NCBI RefSeq assembly: GCF_017051705.1
Contig: NZ_JAFIDJ010000001.1
Span: forward strand, 1,579,786 to 1,643,785
Length of the DNA: 64,000 nt
Reading direction: 5' to 3'
DNA from: Algoriphagus lutimaris
GTDB taxonomy: Bacteria > Bacteroidota > Bacteroidia > Cytophagales > Cyclobacteriaceae
Part shown: positions 44,426 to 52,497 of the stretch, piece after piece
Layout of the letters: each line of letters begins with the position of its first letter
How positions within the stretch are numbered: the stretch's first letter is position 1
Program-made: the position numbers and the translations under genes
Notes under the pieces: generated by a model
What the model was told of the DNA's origin: nothing
Databases searched by the model: none
Seen by the model: the letters and a program-made list of their open reading frames with translations, nothing else

Positions 44426-46255
44426 ATGGGCAAAAGCCTATCCCTTATTTGTACATGTACCTTCCTCCTTTTTCTAGGCTTGGAATCAGAGTCTCATGCT
44501 CAAATAGTAGAGTTTGCCCCTATCCATCAAATTAAAATCCCTAAAAATACTGCTGAACGCGAACAGTTAAGAATACAAGACACACATACTATTCCTTTTT
44601 GGGATGACTTCTCTCAAGGTCTAGACACGTTGGTATGGAAGGTAAATGGAGCCTCATATACGGAAACCATTGGGATTGATGCGCCTTCTTTTGGACAAGT
44701 ATTGTTTAATGGTGTGGACGCTAATGGTAAACCCTACTCCCTCTCCCAAAGAGATATTGGCATTACTGATATGTTGACCTCCAAGGTATTTAATTTATCT
44801 GCCCAAAATTCCAACTCTTTGTACTTGAGTTACTTTTGGCAAGCAGGGGGAAAAGCCGAATTTCCAGACGGCAATGATCAATTCTATTTACAGTTTCTGA
44901 ATGCATCTGGAAATTGGGTCACTGTATGGAATCAATTTGGAGGAATAGAAGAAAATCAAACCAAATTCTCCCAAGAAATCATTCAGGTTGGACCTGACTA
45001 TCAACATGAAGCATTCCAATTCCGATTTGTTGCAGATGGAAGACAAGTAGGCCCTTTTGATAGCTGGATTTTGGATTATGTGTATTTGAATGACGGCAGG
45101 TCAGCCACTGATTTGAATTACAAAGACAGAAGTCTAACACAAGTAAATCAGGTCCTAATAGGAGATTATGCTGCCTATCCCTTAGCATTAATTGAAGGTA
45201 ATCAGGACGGGTTTTGGAGTAGAATTCAAAATCAGTTTTATAATTTAGAGAATAGGTTTAGGGCGATGGAATATACCATTCAGGTAAAGGATACTTTAAC
45301 GAATAGCTTCTTGGCTATCAATCAAAATACCCCATTTGACCCAGTTCCTAATTCTAAAGAAAGAAGAAATTTTACAAGCAATGAGTTTGATGAAGTTCCT
45401 ATCCCGATAGGTGAATCTGCCTTAGAATTTACAACTTCACTTACCACAGGAGATGATTTGTATTTTGAGGTGGACGGAAATGACACTACATTTTTTCAGA
45501 CCATAGACTATCGGATAAATGACACGGTAAAGAGTTATCTCCCTATTCAAGACTATTTTTCTTATGATAGAGGTACCGCAGATTATGCTGCAGGCATCAA
45601 TCAGAAGTCGGGCATGCTGGCGGTGAAATATGATACTCCGGAGGAGGCCTTTTTGAAAGGAATTTCCATCAATTTCACCAATCCCAATCAAGCAAACCAA
45701 GCCATTGATATTATTGTTTGGAAAGACTTAGATCAAGGCCCTATCTTCCGAAGAGAGGACTTGATATCTGTGAAAGAAGCCGAAGAGGAATTCTTATATT
45801 ATTCTTTGGATACGAATATTCAAGTATCCGGAGAATTCTACATTGGATACGCGCAGTTTACCAACGATTTCATTCATGTAGGACTTGACAAATCCAATGA
45901 CCAAGGTGACAAATTATATTATAACGTCTTAGGGGCTTGGGAAGAAAATACGGAAGTTCAAGGCGCCATGATGATTCGTCCACATATCAGTATAGATGCC
46001 CCATTTGAAGAAAGCTCTATTCCAGAAGCTAGATTGATAAAAGTCTTCCCAAATCCAGTGGAAACTATTCTGAATTTGGAGGGTAGTTATAGTGATTTAA
46101 GGATTTTTGATTCCTTTGGAAGGGAGATTTTTCTTCAAAGAGAACGTAGTCTAGAAGGGGAAATTATTAATTTTACAGGACAACATCCCGGAATCTATCT
46201 GGTCAATGTGGTTTCGGAAGATGGATATCAGTCAATAAGAATATTAGTTAAATAG
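44426..46255 (+). CDS. Secreted protein with T9SS sorting domain, function unknown
   Basis: The ATG at 44426 (MGKSLSLICTCTFLLFLG) gives a clean signal peptide and is preferred over a TTG 36 bp upstream inside the PASTA gene; this gives 609 residues. The N-terminal half (DTHTIPFWDDFSQGLDTLVWK...) resembles a jelly-roll-like domain. The C-terminus is a T9SS type A sorting domain (KVFPNPVETILNLEG ... GIYLVNVV). It is probably a surface or extracellular protein; the catalytic or binding role is unknown. It sits between the PASTA gene and a rhodanese gene, 4 bp from each. Confidence 0.85.
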   Translation: MGKSLSLICTCTFLLFLGLESESHAQIVEFAPIHQIKIPKNTAEREQLRIQDTHTIPFWDDFSQGLDTLVWKVNGASYTETIGIDAPSFGQVLFNGVDANGKPYSLSQRDIGITDMLTSKVFNLSAQNSNSLYLSYFWQAGGKAEFPDGNDQFYLQFLNASGNWVTVWNQFGGIEENQTKFSQEIIQVGPDYQHEAFQFRFVADGRQVGPFDSWILDYVYLNDGRSATDLNYKDRSLTQVNQVLIGDYAAYPLALIEGNQDGFWSRIQNQFYNLENRFRAMEYTIQVKDTLTNSFLAINQNTPFDPVPNSKERRNFTSNEFDEVPIPIGESALEFTTSLTTGDDLYFEVDGNDTTFFQTIDYRINDTVKSYLPIQDYFSYDRGTADYAAGINQKSGMLAVKYDTPEEAFLKGISINFTNPNQANQAIDIIVWKDLDQGPIFRREDLISVKEAEEEFLYYSLDTNIQVSGEFYIGYAQFTNDFIHVGLDKSNDQGDKLYYNVLGAWEENTEVQGAMMIRPHISIDAPFEESSIPEARLIKVFPNPVETILNLEGSYSDLRIFDSFGREIFLQRERSLEGEIINFTGQHPGIYLVNVVSEDGYQSIRILVK

Positions 46256-46259
46256 AAAT

Positions 46260-46556
46260 ATGGAAGATATTACTGTAGAAGACCTTAAAGCTAGGTTAGA
46301 CAAAAACGAAAAATTTGTATTCATAGACGTTCGCGAAGAGTGGGAATATGATGATGACAACCTCGGAGCCATGAATATTCCACTAGGAGACTTACCTCAT
46401 AGATTGGATGAAATCGATCAGTACAAAGATCAAGAGATTGTGGTGCATTGCAGATCTGGCGCCAGAAGTGGCAATGCCAAAAAGTTTTTGGAATCCAAAG
46501 GTTTCACAAAGGTTCGAAACGTACTTGGTGGAATAATGGCCTACAACAACTTATAA
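46260..46556 (+). CDS. Single-domain rhodanese-like protein
   Basis: 98 residues, one rhodanese domain with active-site Cys64 in VVHCRSGARSGNA and the substrate-recognition FIDVREEWEYDDDNLGAMNIP start. It likely transfers sulfane sulfur or handles persulfide in the cytoplasm. It starts 4 bp after the T9SS cargo gene and ends in a bidirectional terminator. Confidence 0.92.
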   Translation: MEDITVEDLKARLDKNEKFVFIDVREEWEYDDDNLGAMNIPLGDLPHRLDEIDQYKDQEIVVHCRSGARSGNAKKFLESKGFTKVRNVLGGIMAYNNL

Positions 46557-46584
46557 AAAAAGCTCCCTTGGTGGAGCTTTTTTT
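46555..46584. terminator. Bidirectional terminator
   Basis: AAAAAAGCTCC, a loop of six and GGAGCTTTTTTT. It serves the rhodanese operon and the convergent M50 gene; its right arm reaches the M50 stop codon. Confidence 0.85.
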
Positions 46585-47692
46585 ATGAAAATATAAATGG
46601 TTTTGGAGAGAAACTGATGAGGAAAATAAGGATTGCAATCCAACCAATAATTTTTCTCGAGGTACTTATTTCTCTCAATCCAGAGACTTCTGGATGCTTT
46701 AGCCCCATAATTCGTCCCAGCAGGAATCCAAAAAACAACCAGCCTTGATATCCCTCCCATTCAGGTTTTACAAAAGCAATGGTATATTGAACAGCTGCTA
46801 AGCTTAACACAATCGTCAACTTATTTTGGACAGTTAGCCCTGACTTACTATAACAGATGTACAAGAATGCCAGGTATAGAGGAATTCGGAGCAACAAATC
46901 ATTTCCAGGTAAATAAGGAGAAATAAATCCCAAACCGGCATATCCAATAAATCCCGTAAAGGCAATCAAAGAGACATATTGATGGTACTTTGGAAAAAGC
47001 CCAAAAATCACATGTCCACCATCTAACTGGCCTATTGGTAATAAGTTAAGCGAAGTAAAAAACAAGGCTAAATATCCTGCAAACAGAAAAGGATAATGAA
47101 TTACTTCTGCCATCTCAGGGAGTCTTTCCGGATCTGCAAAAACTTTCCCCAGACCAGAAAAAAGCAGATTATTACCCAATTCAAAATCGATGGCATCTTC
47201 TCCATATCCCTGAAAGCTTTCATCAGCATACTCAGGATGAATTTCATAGATATAGTCTGCAGGAGGCAACGTAGAAAAGCCATAGATTAATACTCCCAAA
47301 GCCACTACAAATCCAGCCAGAGGTCCTGCTACACCAATATCAAAGAATTTTTTCCGACTGTTTACAAAGCCTTTCATCTTTATCACCGCCCCAAACGTCC
47401 CGATGGAGGGGATACCTATAAATCCAAGCCACACTGGAATAAAGAAAGGTAAACTGCACTTCACTTTGTGGTATAAGGAGGTAAAGAAGTGCCCTAACTC
47501 ATGAATCAATAAAATTCCAATAAAAGGGATAGAAAATGCGGTAGCTTTCCAAAAATCTTCTAAGGAAAGGAAATGTTCTCCGGTCGCCAACACTGACTTA
47601 CTCATCACCCATTCTCCCCCTGCGAGGGTAGTAGTAATTAAAGTGAGAATAAATAAAAGACTGTGAACTAGTAGTTCCTTTTTGCTATACAT
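46583..47692 (-). CDS. M50 site-2 protease family integral membrane protein
   Basis: 369 residues with 7-8 membrane helices. The zinc-binding HELGHFF (His64, Glu65, His68) lies in the first helices, and LLPIGQLDGGHV in a later one supplies the third ligand, so the active site looks complete. Such proteases cut transmembrane regulators such as anti-sigma factors, but no such substrate is adjacent. Its start overlaps the end of the HAD phosphatase gene by 8 bp, so the two are co-translated on the minus strand. Confidence 0.9.
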   Translation of the reverse strand: MYSKKELLVHSLLFILTLITTTLAGGEWVMSKSVLATGEHFLSLEDFWKATAFSIPFIGILLIHELGHFFTSLYHKVKCSLPFFIPVWLGFIGIPSIGTFGAVIKMKGFVNSRKKFFDIGVAGPLAGFVVALGVLIYGFSTLPPADYIYEIHPEYADESFQGYGEDAIDFELGNNLLFSGLGKVFADPERLPEMAEVIHYPFLFAGYLALFFTSLNLLPIGQLDGGHVIFGLFPKYHQYVSLIAFTGFIGYAGLGFISPYLPGNDLLLRIPLYLAFLYICYSKSGLTVQNKLTIVLSLAAVQYTIAFVKPEWEGYQGWLFFGFLLGRIMGLKHPEVSGLREISTSRKIIGWIAILIFLISFSPKPFIFS

Positions 47693-48314
47693 GCTTTAAG
47701 TATTCAAATATGATTTGAGGTCCAGTCACATGGACCGCTTGGATACCAATGGAGTTTGCACCTTTGACATTTGCTTCCAAATCATCAAAGAAAACCACTC
47801 GTTCAGGTTTGGTTCCTAATTGTTCCACCATGCTAAGATAAATTTCGGGAGAAGGTTTTGACATTCCCATTTCATGGCTATAGAACACATGCTGAAATAG
47901 CGGATCAAAATTATCCAACTGAAAATCTTTTTTCAGCATTTTGTAGACTGCTTCTATATGGATTTCATTGGTATTGCTTAAAATCCCTAATCTGTATTTG
48001 TCTTGTAAATTGGAGATCAAATCAATTCGTTCGGCAGGGATATTTTTGAGAAGAGAGTTCCAGATATCATCAACCTTTTCATCATTCCAGTCTTTTTCGA
48101 AGTAATCTCTCACCTCTTCTCTAAACTTTTCAGAATTTATTTCACCCTTTTCATATTTTTCATGAAACTCTGTCAAATAAAATTGATCTACCTTATCATG
48201 ATGATAATCAGGCAATTCCTTTTTGATTAAATCCAAAGATTTTTGGTAGTCAATATCTACGATCACATTACCGAGATCAAAAATCAAAAAATCCGCATCA
48301 GGAACGTTTTTCAT
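47685..48314 (-). CDS. HAD family phosphatase, YihX-like
   Basis: 209-residue cytoplasmic phosphatase. Motif I, FDLGNVIVDIDYQ (Asp13, with Gly at the +2 position), is like that of E. coli YihX, an alpha-glucose-1-phosphate phosphatase. Motif II is GILSNTNE, motif III lies in GMSKPSPEIYL, and motif IV is VVFFDDLEANVKGA. The substrate cannot be fixed from sequence. It is the upstream gene of the pair with the M50 protease. Confidence 0.88.
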   Translation of the reverse strand: MKNVPDADFLIFDLGNVIVDIDYQKSLDLIKKELPDYHHDKVDQFYLTEFHEKYEKGEINSEKFREEVRDYFEKDWNDEKVDDIWNSLLKNIPAERIDLISNLQDKYRLGILSNTNEIHIEAVYKMLKKDFQLDNFDPLFQHVFYSHEMGMSKPSPEIYLSMVEQLGTKPERVVFFDDLEANVKGANSIGIQAVHVTGPQIIFEYLKHV

Positions 48315-48417
48315 GCACTAATTAGGTTGTGAATTTGATTTCAAATATGTAACATTGCACTCCCAAAACCAAGGTTTAGGACAAATAGAACAAGCTATTG
48401 CCTACTTTGATTTTAAA

Positions 48418-48459
48418 GGGCCTATAGCTCATCCCGATAGCTATCGTGGAGGTTAGAGC
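48418..48459 (+). pseudogene. Broken 5' half-copy of the CAU tRNA with a palindrome in the D-loop
   Basis: GGGCCTATAGCTC at 48418-48430 equals the first 13 bases of the tRNA at 48488, and GGTTAGAGC at 48451-48459 equals its D-loop end and D-stem. In between, the loop is replaced by ATCCCGATAGCTATCGTGGA. No anticodon arm follows. The inserted core is the reverse complement of the one in the downstream array units (17 matching bases). Upstream (48315-48417) I see only a possible weak promoter near 48400 (TACTTTG). Confidence 0.75.
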
Positions 48460-48487
48460 TTTAGGTTAGTTAAAGTAATAATATTTT

Positions 48488-48561
48488 GGGCCTATAGCTC
48501 AGTTGGTTAGAGCACCTGACTCATAATCAGGTGGTCCCTGGTTCGAGCCCAGGTGGGCCCA
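48488..48561 (+). tRNA. tRNA with CAU anticodon (Ile2 or elongator Met)
   Basis: 74 nt cloverleaf with all arms intact: acceptor GGGCCTA/TGGGCCC, D-arm GCTC/GAGC, anticodon stem CCTGA/TCAGG with loop CTCATAA (anticodon CAT at 48522-48524), T-arm CCTGG/CCAGG with loop TTCGAGC, discriminator A. No CCA is encoded. The C4-G69 and C5-G68 pairs match features of E. coli tRNA-Ile2, whose CAU is modified by TilS, but an elongator Met cannot be excluded. It is the single complete copy in a zone of broken copies. Confidence 0.95.
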
Positions 48562-49605
48562 CTAAAACCCCGTTTACTGAAAGTATTCGGGGTTTTGTTT
48601 TTTTAAATTATTAAACTTCGAATAAAAACATTAATCCTTATCCCAACCCCATCTTGATTAATTAATAGGATTTATAACTGGCGGTCCCTGCCCACGATAG
48701 CTATCGGGGTGAGCCCAGGTGGGCCCACTGAAACCCCGTTTACTGAAAGTATTCGGGGTTTTGTTTTTTTTAAATTATTAAACTTCGAATAAAAACATTA
48801 ATCCTTATCCCAACCCCATCTTGATTAATTAATGGGATTTATAACTGGCGGTCCCTGCCCACGATAGCTATCGGGGCGAGCCCAGGTGGGCCCACCGAAA
48901 CCCCGTTTACTGAAAGTATTCGGGGTTTTGTTTTTTTAAATTATTAAACTTCGAATAAAAACATTAATCTTTATCCCAACCCCATATTGATTAATTAATA
49001 GGATTTATAACTGGCGGTCCCTGCCCACGATAGCTATCGGGGCGAGCCCAGGTGGGCCCACTAAAACCCCGTTTACTGAAAGTATTCGGGGTTTTGTTTT
49101 TTTAAATTATTAAACTTCGAATAAAAACATTAATCCTTACCCCAACCCCATCTTGATTAATTAATAGGATTTATAACTGGCGATCCCTGCCCACGATAGC
49201 TATCGGGGCGAGCCCAGGTGGGCCCACTGAAACCCCGTTTACTGAAAGTATTCGGGGTTTTGTTTTTTTTAAATTATTAAACTCCGAATAAAAACATTAA
49301 TCCTTATCCCAACCCCATCTTGATTAATTAATAGGATTTATAACTGGCGGTCCCTGCCCACGATAGCTATCGGGGCGAGCCCAGGTGGGCCCACTGAAAC
49401 CCCGTTTACTGAAAGTGTTCGGGGTTTTGTTTTTTTAAATTATTAAACTTCGAATAAAAACATTAATCTTTATCCCAACCCCATCTTGATTAATTAATAG
49501 GATTTATAACTGGCTGTCCCTGCCCACGATAGCTATCGGGGCGAGCCCAGGTGGGCCCACTAAAACCCCGTTTACTGAAAGTATTCGGGTTTTTTTTTTT
49601 AATTG
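48545..49605 (+). repeat. tRNA-derived tandem repeat array, 166-167 bp period, about 6.4 copies
   Basis: The anchor GAGCCCAGGTGGGCCCAC occurs at 48545 (inside the tRNA), 48711, 48878, 49044, 49210, 49377 and 49543, so spacing is 166 or 167 bp; the 1-bp change comes from a 7- or 8-T run. Each unit holds the terminator hairpin ACCCCG...CGGGGT plus T-run, an A+T-rich spacer, and a tRNA 3' half. In that half the T-loop bases GTT are replaced by CCCACGATAGCTATCGGGG. Units differ at only a few bases. The seventh copy decays after the hairpin near 49590. There is no conserved ORF in the units. Confidence 0.95.
48565..48604 (+). terminator. Intrinsic terminator of the CAU tRNA gene
   Basis: ACCCCG and CGGGGT, with an inner ACT/AGT pairing, then TTTGTTTTTTT. 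The same hairpin recurs once per array unit. Confidence 0.88.
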
Positions 49606-50163
49606 TTTTAATAATTAAAGATTCGTTTCTCAAAATCAGGTTCCATTGAGATATACCTTCAGCAAGTTAGAAAGCCATTTGCGGAATGATAATCCAACTA
49701 CCAACTTAAAAGATAATTTAATAAAAGTGATACTCTATTTTTGAGAAAATAACCTCACTGGGGTCAATTGATATTAGCCAAGTATTGAACCCTGAGAGAC
49801 GAATGGAGAACATTTTGATCATCGACAAATGCTGAAATCAGAATTATTTGGGAGAATAAAACTAAGATTTTACAAGGATGTGAATGTTCGTCTGATGAAT
49901 ACGCATCAGTCCCTTGATTCCAAACTTTCAATAAAAGACAATCCAAAGTTCAACAAAGGAATGGTAGTCGTTTTCTTTTTTTTCTCAATACTTTCCAAAG
50001 AGTGTCATCCTTGAATAACTTCTTGAACTACTCGAAGCCTGGCTTCAAAATTTTATTTTCAGTTTTTTTCGCATAAAAGTTCCCCCAATAAGTATCTACC
50101 TTTTGGGGGCTAGTTCAATTCTCTGCCTTTTTCTTTCCTTCATAAAACCCAACAGTGTTACTT
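49606..50163. other. Gene-free stretch between repeat array and TonB-type receptor gene
   Basis: No convincing intact gene. Two short opposite open frames near 49.8-50.0 kb lack starts with ribosome binding context. The only structure I can propose is the decayed regulator-like fragment listed separately. Confidence 0.5.
49803..49940 (+). pseudogene. Possible decayed NtrC-type regulator fragment
   Basis: ATG at 49803 reads MENILIIDK, like the first strand of a receiver domain, then stops. Shifting frame at 49829 reads KSELFGRIK, like the ESELFGH block of sigma-54 activators. It continues LRFYKDVNVRLMNTHQSLDSK, like the later VDVRxIAATNxxL block. If real, it is a regulator gene with two or more large deletions and a frameshift. 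The match is by eye and short, so this is tentative. Confidence 0.28.
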
Positions 50164-52497
50164 CTAAAAATTAAATCTTGCGGATAGTAAATAGATCTGC
50201 GTTTCCCTTTTGGAATAAAACTCCTGTGAAAAAGCATTCGTAAGTGTATTCCCAGCAAATCTTCTCGTATCAAATATATCACGCGCACTAAACGTCAAGC
50301 TTCCCTTTCCATCAAAAAATGATTTTTGTAAACTTCCATCGAAGTAGTATTGTGCCAAATCTCTTCCTTGTGCTTCAATTTCCGGAGATTCATAATTACC
50401 GACCAACTGAAAGTTAATTCCTAAAGGAAGTTTAAAGTCTTGAGTTAATTTAACATTCCATGAAAATCCTGAATTTGTAAATTCCTCTCCGATATTGGAT
50501 CCGTCTACAGCAATTTGAAAAAGTGTCAAGCCTCCATTAATAGAATACCAATCAGTAATCTCATTAGTGGTAATCAACTCTACACCATAAGATTGGGAGG
50601 AAAGTAAATTGTCAGGCTGGGAGTAAGATATTCCATCTTCAATGATGGTGATGAAATCTATTTGGCCATTTACCTTACGATAAAACAGGTTTGTTGTAAA
50701 GCTAGATTTATCAAAATTAGCCAGATGCCCTAACTCGAAGGAATTAATCATTTCAGGATCCAATTCAGGATTACCCCTTCTTACATTCAAACTATCCGTG
50801 ATATCTGGAAAAGGGTTCAATCTCCAAGCTCTTGGCCTATCAATTCTTCTACTATAGGTAATTTTCAAGGCATGTTGATCATTCAAGTTATAAAGCGCCT
50901 GCACACTTGGAAAAAGGTTGAAATAAGACTGCTTATTGGTCTCGTTTGTATTCTCAAGATAAGTATCCACTTGGGTATATTCTCCTCTTAAACCTACTGC
51001 ATATTCAAACTTCGGTTTGGTTCTGGAATAGACCATATAACCCGCATGAATTTGATCTTTGTAAACAAAGCGGTTACTAATAGCAGGGTCTAAAACAAAA
51101 TCTTGGCTTGCCTCTTGGAATCTCAGGTATTGATAATCATTATCAAATTTACGTAGGGTGGATTTCAAACCAGTTTCAAATTTCCCGGTTTCAAATGGCC
51201 TGATATAATCTGCTTGAAATACTGATATGTTTCTAACCTCATCAGTAAATGCACGTTCCTGCCCAGTTAAATTCCCAGGATCAGGATTCAAACTATTATT
51301 AAAGATCTCAATGTTTTGTGTTTTGTACTGATTTCGATACGAATGACTAGCAGATGCACGCAGCAAATGTCCTTTTTCTTTAAATGAGTGTTCAAAAATC
51401 AAGGCATTATCCAAACCGTCATCCGTTTCATTTTCTGAGTTTCGTCTGACATAATTGAACTCCTTACCTCCCCTCACTTGCTCTGCAAACAAGGTGTTTG
51501 TTTGCCAATTTTCACTGGACTGATAAACTCCTTCGTAACTCAAAACATTGTTACCAAAGTAGTAATCAGCTCCATAGTTCAAATTATGCCCGATATCCTG
51601 TTCTGAATTATCTGTATTCTGAACAAGGGATTCATCATCTTCAAAAAGAAAGCGAGTGGATTCACGCGTCCCTATACTTTTCCAATTCCGGTAATTATAA
51701 CCGGCGTAAGTATTCAACCTAAGGCTCCTGTGGCTAATTCTAGCTCCTAGGTTTGTCCTATTTCTAGTTCCGTACGTAGCTTCTACACCTCCATGAGTTC
51801 CCAACTCAATTCCTTTTTTCAAAACAATATCAATTACCCCTGCTTCTGCTTCCGCATCATATCGAGCGTTCGGGTTATTGATTATTTTGATTTCCTCTAC
51901 CGCACTTGCAGGTAATTGATCTAAATTTTGGGTAAGAGAAGAGTTTCTTCCATTGATCAGGATATTGGTCCCTGAACTTCCACGTAAGGAAATAGCCCCA
52001 TCTTCACTTACAGAAATAGAAGGAGTATTTCTTAGCACATCCAATAAAGTACCTCCAGTATTAGCCAGGTTGTTATCAGGAGTGATTGTCAACCCTTCCA
52101 TGGTGGTCCGAACAGGCATTTTTGACGTTTCTACTACTACTTCCTCCAAATTTTGGTTTTCACTTTTCAGCTCAAGAATTCCTAAATCTTCAGCTCCAGA
52201 GACTTTCACATTTGGGATATTCAAATCTGAATAACCTAAAAAGAATGCCTTTAAAGCATATTCGCCAGGATCTACTTGAAGTGAAAACCTTCCACTATCG
52301 TCAGTATCTCCAAAGGATTCGGGAGACGTAGAATCTTGAGAACCAAAAAGAGCTACCTGAACAAAAGGCAAAGGCTTTTTGGATTCAGAATCTACCAATA
52401 CCCCTGTTACCCTTGAATCTTGTCCAAAGGAACCATGTACTATAAATGCAAAGCACAGGATAAAAAACAGGAAAAAATAGGAATTTACTCTCATCAT
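50164..52497 (-). CDS. TonB-dependent receptor-like outer membrane protein
   Basis: 777 residues: signal peptide (to about residue 25, GSFGQ), a carboxypeptidase-regulatory-like domain (about 28-115, VTGVLVDSESKKPLPFVQVALFG), a plug (about 117-235, LLDVLRNTPSISVSEDGAISLRG is the core) and an outer-membrane beta-barrel of the OMP_b-brl_3 type ending LLSARFNF. The ligand is unknown. It lies directly downstream of an OmpR-type two-component system on the same strand, so those proteins probably control its expression. The 66-bp gap before it holds an 11-bp inverted repeat. Confidence 0.88.
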   Translation of the reverse strand: MMRVNSYFFLFFILCFAFIVHGSFGQDSRVTGVLVDSESKKPLPFVQVALFGSQDSTSPESFGDTDDSGRFSLQVDPGEYALKAFFLGYSDLNIPNVKVSGAEDLGILELKSENQNLEEVVVETSKMPVRTTMEGLTITPDNNLANTGGTLLDVLRNTPSISVSEDGAISLRGSSGTNILINGRNSSLTQNLDQLPASAVEEIKIINNPNARYDAEAEAGVIDIVLKKGIELGTHGGVEATYGTRNRTNLGARISHRSLRLNTYAGYNYRNWKSIGTRESTRFLFEDDESLVQNTDNSEQDIGHNLNYGADYYFGNNVLSYEGVYQSSENWQTNTLFAEQVRGGKEFNYVRRNSENETDDGLDNALIFEHSFKEKGHLLRASASHSYRNQYKTQNIEIFNNSLNPDPGNLTGQERAFTDEVRNISVFQADYIRPFETGKFETGLKSTLRKFDNDYQYLRFQEASQDFVLDPAISNRFVYKDQIHAGYMVYSRTKPKFEYAVGLRGEYTQVDTYLENTNETNKQSYFNLFPSVQALYNLNDQHALKITYSRRIDRPRAWRLNPFPDITDSLNVRRGNPELDPEMINSFELGHLANFDKSSFTTNLFYRKVNGQIDFITIIEDGISYSQPDNLLSSQSYGVELITTNEITDWYSINGGLTLFQIAVDGSNIGEEFTNSGFSWNVKLTQDFKLPLGINFQLVGNYESPEIEAQGRDLAQYYFDGSLQKSFFDGKGSLTFSARDIFDTRRFAGNTLTNAFSQEFYSKRETQIYLLSARFNF

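Follow-up and report, generated by a model that had tools for sequence, protein, structure and literature searches.

The window, a stretch of 64,000 nucleotides from Algoriphagus lutimaris, contains an intact tRNA gene with anticodon CAU that is accompanied by partial copies of itself, in which a 19-bp palindrome from a dispersed, REP-like family stands in for three bases of the loop. One 5'-half copy lies upstream of the gene, and six 3'-half copies, each with a terminator-like hairpin, lie downstream. We lean towards reading the locus as an array of the tRNA-linked repeat (TLR) type, which would have been founded by insertion of the palindrome into a stable-RNA loop together with local duplication, and would then have grown. 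The genus holds many variable copies, mirror-image 5' ones among them, for which the palindrome serves as a tag. Comparison of close relatives could thus trace how a TLR is born, and strains would allow a test; the genus examples also link TLRs to REP-like palindromes.

Partial tRNA copies surround an intact tRNA(CAU) gene

The features of the locus, numbered from the first letter of the window, are as follows.

48403..48409, + strand: TACTTTG, with a weak resemblance to the Bacteroidetes -7 box TAnnTTTG but one T short
48418..48431, + strand: 5'-half copy, first segment, equal to tRNA positions 1-14 (GGGCCTATAGCTCA) (sequence)
48432..48450, + strand: palindrome TCCCGATAGCTATCGTGGA replacing the D-loop GTT (tRNA positions 15-17) (sequence)
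48451..48459, + strand: 5'-half copy, second segment, equal to tRNA positions 18-26 (GGTTAGAGC) (sequence)
48488..48562, + strand: intact tRNA gene, anticodon CAU (tRNA-Met according to ARAGORN)
48567..48604, + strand: terminator-like hairpin belonging to the intact tRNA(CAU) (fold and sequence)
48680..48728, + strand: 3'-half copy 1, with T-loop palindrome at 48691-48709 and terminator-like hairpin at 48733-48771 (alignment, fold)
48847..48895, + strand: 3'-half copy 2, terminator-like hairpin at 48900-48937 (alignment)
49013..49061, + strand: 3'-half copy 3, terminator-like hairpin at 49066-49103 (alignment)
49179..49227, + strand: 3'-half copy 4, terminator-like hairpin at 49232-49270 (alignment)
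49346..49394, + strand: 3'-half copy 5, terminator-like hairpin at 49399-49436 (alignment)
49512..49560, + strand: 3'-half copy 6, terminator-like hairpin at 49565-49600 (alignment)

The upstream copy (48418-48459), which is absent from the preliminary description of this DNA, is separated from the intact gene by a 28-bp spacer and mirrors the downstream copies, with which it shares the palindrome core. The -7 promoter box of Bacteroidetes has the consensus TAnnTTTG; no exact match to it was found upstream of the window's 5'-half copy, where the TACTTTG listed above is located. On the downstream side, the tandem tRNA 3' halves claimed in the preliminary description are borne out: the gene at 48488-48562 is followed by six near-identical units of 166 or 167 bp, and the tRNA 3' end GAGCCCAGGTGGGCCCAC occurs at 7 places (the tRNA and six copies) with spacings of 166, 167, 166, 166, 167 and 166. 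The last 18 nt of the tRNA are identical in all 7 places. As that description had also stated, the T-loop GTT (tRNA positions 53-55) is replaced in all six later units by the 19-nt CCCACGATAGCTATCGGGG, with single-letter variants; each later copy reads GGCGGTCCCTG, then the palindrome, then CGAGCCCAGG, and the 5' T-arm strand precedes the palindrome. The further claim that every unit has its own terminator also held, as the same hairpin and T run, terminator-like in appearance, follow each of the seven 3' ends, and in the fold of unit 1 the hairpin forms the terminator-like stem. A simple terminator scan of the array reported none, probably because its loop limit of 8 leaves out the nested hairpin. 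The palindrome core CGATAGCTATCG, allowing up to 2 mismatches, was found 10 times in the window as compared to 0.65 expected, and shuffled sequences never reached 10.

When the units were aligned from one tRNA 3' end to the next, the six differed pairwise at 2-6 of 167 letters and each contained at least one private difference, which argues against the array being an assembly artefact and leads us to rule that explanation out. Units u1/u4, u2/u5 and u3/u6 differ by 3, 2 and 4 letters, respectively, and the remaining 12 pairs by 4-6. Because corresponding units are closer to one another, the unit lengths repeat as 166, 167, 166, and Tandem Repeats Finder scores a 499-bp period best (2041, as compared to 1988 for the 166-bp period), the array probably grew from three to six units through duplication of a 3-unit block.

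Similar copies flank other tRNA genes of the genome

The window belongs to a genome of 4.7 Mb in 61 contigs, referred to as G000. Searching it with the array unit returned 7 matches, all within the window array, and the exact core CGATAGCTATCG is present 11 times, in every case in a tRNA-flanking copy: seven at the window locus, two at Thr, one at Ser(UGA) and one at the second CAU gene, which we take to be of the initiator type. A strict detector found flanking copies at 14 of the 39 tRNA genes of G000 and at 3 of the 38 of its close relative G018, with reverse-strand controls of 0 in both. Two tandem pairs, Val and Asp, each enter the count twice, so that the 14 genes correspond to 12 loci, and the window array is one among these. 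Arg(ACG) has a copy that the strict detector missed, and tRNA-Ala is accompanied by a second array of five full units and one truncated unit. At the locus of G018 equivalent to that in the window, neither the upstream copy nor the array is present, and its Ala and Arg(ACG) genes have what look by eye like decayed remnants. At tRNA-Ser(GGA) of both genomes (L287 in G000, L283 in G018), the 3'-half copies have the T-arm in inverted plus direct form together with a long insert, a layout very close to that of E. coli rtT.

The copy at Lys is common to G000 and two other genomes (G716 and G025) and is absent from G018, where the junction is clean. A 17-bp direct repeat of the tRNA end flanks the Lys insert; since such repeats permit clean deletion, single events such as the one behind the empty site in G018 are not polarised. 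The same tRNA-end repeats would fit scars of integrative elements, i.e. attL/attR remnants at tRNA genes, an explanation that we consider very improbable, as the units are small and regular, a 5'-half side exists upstream, and there are versions at 5S genes and with anticodon arms. In a search of phage and plasmid sequences (2580 and 1193 records), moreover, the 40 matches listed all overlap the tRNA itself with a query coverage of 34% or less, and none of the records reaches 80%; on these grounds we rejected an origin in a mobile element of this kind. Five viral contigs contain a loose palindrome pattern, and inspection by eye of a short sequence around it revealed no tRNA half.

D-loop and T-loop copies favour opposite sides of the tRNA

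Split copies were mapped in 230 distinct tRNA contexts, a non-random set that includes loci fetched because of a match, and 130 distinct ones were found. The raw count was 170, as compared to 19 on the reverse strand, and some of the 170 are thus noise. Copies of the D-loop type are located mostly upstream of the tRNA (39, with 7 downstream, some of which are scored so through tandem duplication of the tRNA), those of the T-loop type mostly downstream (37, with 2 upstream), and those of the anticodon-arm type are split 30 downstream and 11 upstream, with 4 copies of other types. The commonest gap is exactly three replaced bases (40/130). A control in which tRNAs were swapped gave a mean of 33.7, which is inflated because tRNAs have arm sequences in common, and the reverse strand was therefore used as the control. 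A separate count of 12-nt matches in 217 contexts yielded 43 upstream and 53 downstream; the reverse strand gave 0 and 4, and swapped anticodons gave 2.6 and 0.6. Of the 93 copy segments with a length of at least 14 nt, 79 have a GC hairpin within 45 nt, as compared to 157 of 1962 random positions; by eye, several of the 14 segments without one have a decayed or longer hairpin.

Among 55 upstream palindrome sites, with tandem copies counted, 41 have two or fewer mismatches to positions 1-14 of their own tRNA (none in 34, one in 6, two in 1), although many D-loop copies entered the set via a search pattern that fixes TAGCTCA, which for those copies leaves only positions 1-7 free in these counts. 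The other 14 sites have 5-11 mismatches and correspond to other arms or to a neighbouring tRNA. Species-specific changes in Asn and Val are common to the 5'-half copy and its tRNA. Judged from these sequences, the 5'-half copies are closer to their own tRNA than simple decay would leave them, so that gene conversion, recent origin or selection is needed.

The D-loop pattern matched 21 of 73 genomes of the genus (1 genome in the reversed control) and 2 of 392 genomes of a phylum sample, both belonging to this genus (again 1 genome in the reversed control). A stricter version, which requires ATCGNGGAGG, matched 1/295; in another search it matched A. zhangzhouensis and four further records, from isolate UBA11400 (1), bin_228 (2) and Bacteroidales bacterium 6E (1). 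At L072 and L073 the copy adjoins a tRNA, and L070 and L071 are pattern matches alone. The architecture extends to 5S rRNA: among 27 5S places, several of them cut by contig ends, the gene is followed by copies of the 5S 3' end that contain a palindrome of the same family (CCCGCGATAATTATCGGGG or relatives) at 2/2 places in G716 (L387, L395) and 3/3 in G712 (L379, L391, L399), each with a terminator-like sequence by eye, and a degenerate 5S-linked copy is visible in a third genome (G028).

A dispersed palindrome and the search for its mover

The palindrome had been suspected of being a small REP-like element, and its distribution agrees with this. The pattern GATAGCTATCGGGA is present in 58 of 73 genus genomes at 0 to 29 per strand, and the reversed pattern is found in none. 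Of 67 distinct sites in a partly hand-picked sample (L295-L364; many from two copy-rich species, with known tRNA sites left out), 61 are not within 450 nt of a tRNA. At these 61 sites no preference for hairpin loops was detected (stem score 2.51 vs 2.48, p=0.49), and a test of fold energy gave p=0.013; the idea that the palindrome always targets hairpin loops is therefore not supported in general. Single clear cases of loop insertion do occur (L310, L328 and L336, in the last of which the palindrome is nested in itself), and in a cobalamin riboswitch (L297, 1470-1704) the palindrome occupies a terminal loop, with a second, related one in a different stem. The sequence around the palindrome also recurs in several genomes as GAGATTCC, palindrome, TGACC/TGGCC or the reverse complement thereof, with small variations (L330, L331, L334, L343, L344, L353, L354, L359, L360), and Rfam gave no match at E<=0.1 for this set. 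At one site (L333, about 606), the palindrome appears by eye to be in frame (IPIAIG) within an apparent signal peptide.

A palindrome of this kind could be mobilized as in RAYT/TnpA-REP systems, in which case the bulged 19-mer TCCNCGATAGCTATCGGGA would be a REP hairpin, and a Y1 transposase would carry it into single-stranded tRNA loops. The 19-mer does occur in both orientations, and the self-nested case at L336 recalls the REPs that have been described within other palindromes (PMC3733652, excerpts). Y1 transposase genes are present in 12 of 12 genomes tested, with 56 matches. We nevertheless regard this mechanism as quite unlikely and, on the loci read, set RAYT aside as the mover, as the palindrome adjoins none of the 30 Y1_Tnp loci read (of the 56 matches; in G000, 2/3), several of these loci carry different hairpins of their own, and away from tRNAs there is no general loop preference. 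The regularly repeated hairpins that flank the Y1 genes in L249, L238 and L228 are unrelated to the palindrome, and a single match to GATAGCTATC in L223 lies inside the transposase match and is without palindrome arms. Like the GTAG and CGTC families of REP/RAYT elements (PMC3733652, excerpts), the present element is a short dispersed palindrome that is sometimes found inside other palindromes; it differs in that no GTAG/CGTC foot tag was seen by eye at the listed tRNA-flanking copies, no cognate Y1 gene lies beside it in the loci read, and it occupies fixed positions in stable-RNA copies. Copies are numerous across the genus, yet the only exact CGATAGCTATCG cores in G000 are the 11 at tRNAs. 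Palindromic or hairpin elements in organelles of Volvox (PMC2670323) and sponges (PMC2800124) are likewise short palindromes that spread, and those of Volvox nest in each other, one block interrupting an rRNA module; the elements differ in being organellar, and the excerpts of both papers do not describe tandem partial tRNA duplications.

Relation to the TLRs of E. coli

The preliminary description compared the array with the rtT repeats of E. coli. These belong to the TLRs, which have been known since 1978 (Egan and Landy 1978; Rudd 1999; both through PMC8144298). Ten loci together hold 22 of them, each locus having one to five copies, and rtT/RttR at tyrTV and rrA/rrB/rrF at 5S belong to the class; in the excerpts of PMC8144298 the class has no known function, and no account of its origin is given there. 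The comparison proves apt, as E. coli repeats at Tyr, Lys and Arg also have a T-loop replaced by hairpins, a statement that rests on sequence for all three and on folding for Tyr and Lys. The tyrTV locus has four repeats, all recognized by the Rfam RtT model; in these, a hairpin cluster lies between the two tRNA T-arm strands where the T-loop would be. At the lysT operon, lysV and argVYZQ, the copies have the same 3' end and most of one cassette in common; the left part and the fold differ in the last Lys copy and the lysV copy. In E. coli K-12, the Lys, Arg and Tyr TLRs (L367, L369, L365) share much of one hairpin cassette in the position of the T-loop, and a 59-bp piece containing the cassette has a median of 7 places per genome in the 5264 of 5426 E. 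coli genomes having any.

In both systems the repeats adjoin a stable-RNA gene, exist in tRNA and 5S versions and form tandem copies, and hairpins replace the T-loop; the stretch identical to the 3' end of the gene is 18-19 bp in E. coli and 18 nt here. There are six copies in the window array, as compared to one to five per locus in E. coli (PMC8144298, excerpts). TLRs lie immediately downstream of their tRNA or rRNA gene, which the upstream 5'-half copy here does not fit. Algoriphagus belongs to another phylum, its palindrome of 18/19 bp contrasts with the longer E. coli cassette AACGTTGC..GCAACGGCCCGAAGGGCGAGCGAAGCGAGTC, and upstream 5'-half and anticodon-arm copies are present as well. In 11 E. 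coli K-12 regions with 50 ARAGORN tRNA predictions (49 annotated genes, one prediction being a spurious extra), a 12-nt search, which gave 3 reverse-strand rows, revealed no 5'-half or anticodon-arm copies. The preliminary description had further taken the array to be independent of rtT, and in keeping with this the Rfam RtT model (RF00391) has no match at E<=1 in positions 46000-52000 of the window, nor any in ten loci (nine of G000, one of G018), while it recovered the 4 repeats of tyrTV as a positive control. Our searches of the open-access literature yielded no description of loop replacement, 5'-half copies or TLRs in Bacteroidota.

How the copies may have arisen

Under the TLR-type origin that we favour, the palindrome would land in the loop of a tRNA gene, or of a fresh partial copy, and the survivors would be only those cells in which unequal exchange or a template switch leaves one intact tRNA. 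The interrupted half would remain outside the intact gene, on the 5' side for D-loop hits and on the 3' side for T-loop hits, and copies would subsequently be born, multiply, decay and be deleted. This origin is suggested by the position rules, with D-type copies mostly upstream, T-type copies mostly downstream and a three-base gap commonest; by the GC hairpin beside most copy segments; by the same architecture at 5S rRNA (G716, G712) and in the E. coli TLRs; by the dispersal of the palindrome, mostly far from tRNAs in the sites sampled; and by the unit pattern of the window array, which fits duplication of a 3-unit block. Turnover is indicated by the dissimilar sets in close relatives (14/39 vs 3/38) and by decayed-looking remnants. 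Against a TLR-type origin, no mover was found among the 30 of 56 Y1_Tnp matches read, hairpin loops away from tRNAs are not generally preferred, the 5'-half copies resemble their own tRNA more closely than simple decay predicts, and empty sites such as that at Lys in G018 give no polarity.

As a wider and more tentative proposal, which we rate as possible but doubtful, one process common to distant phyla would make TLRs: hairpins would be exchanged into stable-RNA loops, in the D, anticodon and T arms and in 5S rRNA, leaving an intact gene and an outer half copy, with a lineage-specific hairpin (TCCNCGATAGCTATCGGGA of the Algoriphagus type, and for E. coli the GGCCCGAAGGGC cassette). Gene conversion, or an action of the half copies on precursor folding, would keep these in register with their tRNA.

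Do the copies have a function?

The copies are probably for the most part non-functional, and those beyond the first terminator would contribute at most low-level read-through RNA and extra termination. A stronger role, in which the 3'-half units would yield small RNAs by read-through or serve as back-up modules for processing/termination between terminators 1 and 2, appears unlikely. It would accord with the order gene-terminator-copy-terminator, which is also that of rrA/rrB/rrF in E. coli, where RrA/B/F after the 5S genes have been proposed as back-up processing/termination modules (PMC8144298, excerpts), and with the presence of the same class at 5S in G716 and G712. Stem pairs of the D-loop palindromes are intact in 234 of 238 cases while the loops vary, although this count covers 34 rows, 2 of them repeats, and the outer TCC..GG letters were already set by the pattern used in the search. 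The very different sets in close relatives speak against such a role, as do the decayed appearance of some copies, a Lys copy that by eye is without an obvious terminator, and the absence of the unit's T-arm from its predicted fold.

The upstream 5'-half copy could instead regulate tRNA maturation: within the transcribed leader, it would compete against the native 5' half for pairing to the 3' acceptor strand. The predicted fold of leader and tRNA at the window uses the acceptor and D arm of the copy (-76.4 kcal/mol, z -5.87), in 32 of 35 usable loci (38 loci, three with values of 0.0/0.0 being left out) the acceptor strand of the copy is predicted to pair in preference to the native strand, and copies track the acceptor sequence of their tRNA. 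When the palindrome was replaced in silico by the native GTT, however, the copy won more (mean 0.94 vs 0.78, n=26 once loci where neither strand paired much had been removed). The palindrome therefore does not serve decoy competition, and its role as a decoy strengthener is refuted. As equilibrium folding also ignores co-transcriptional folding and RNase P, we judge such regulation improbable. A position of the upstream copy within the transcribed leader is probable: in 15 of 38 loci the motif TAnnTTTG occurs no more than 70 nt upstream of the copy, and in none of the 38 is it present in the spacer. The motif was found at 76 of 189 tRNAs without a copy and in 55 of 2148 random stretches.
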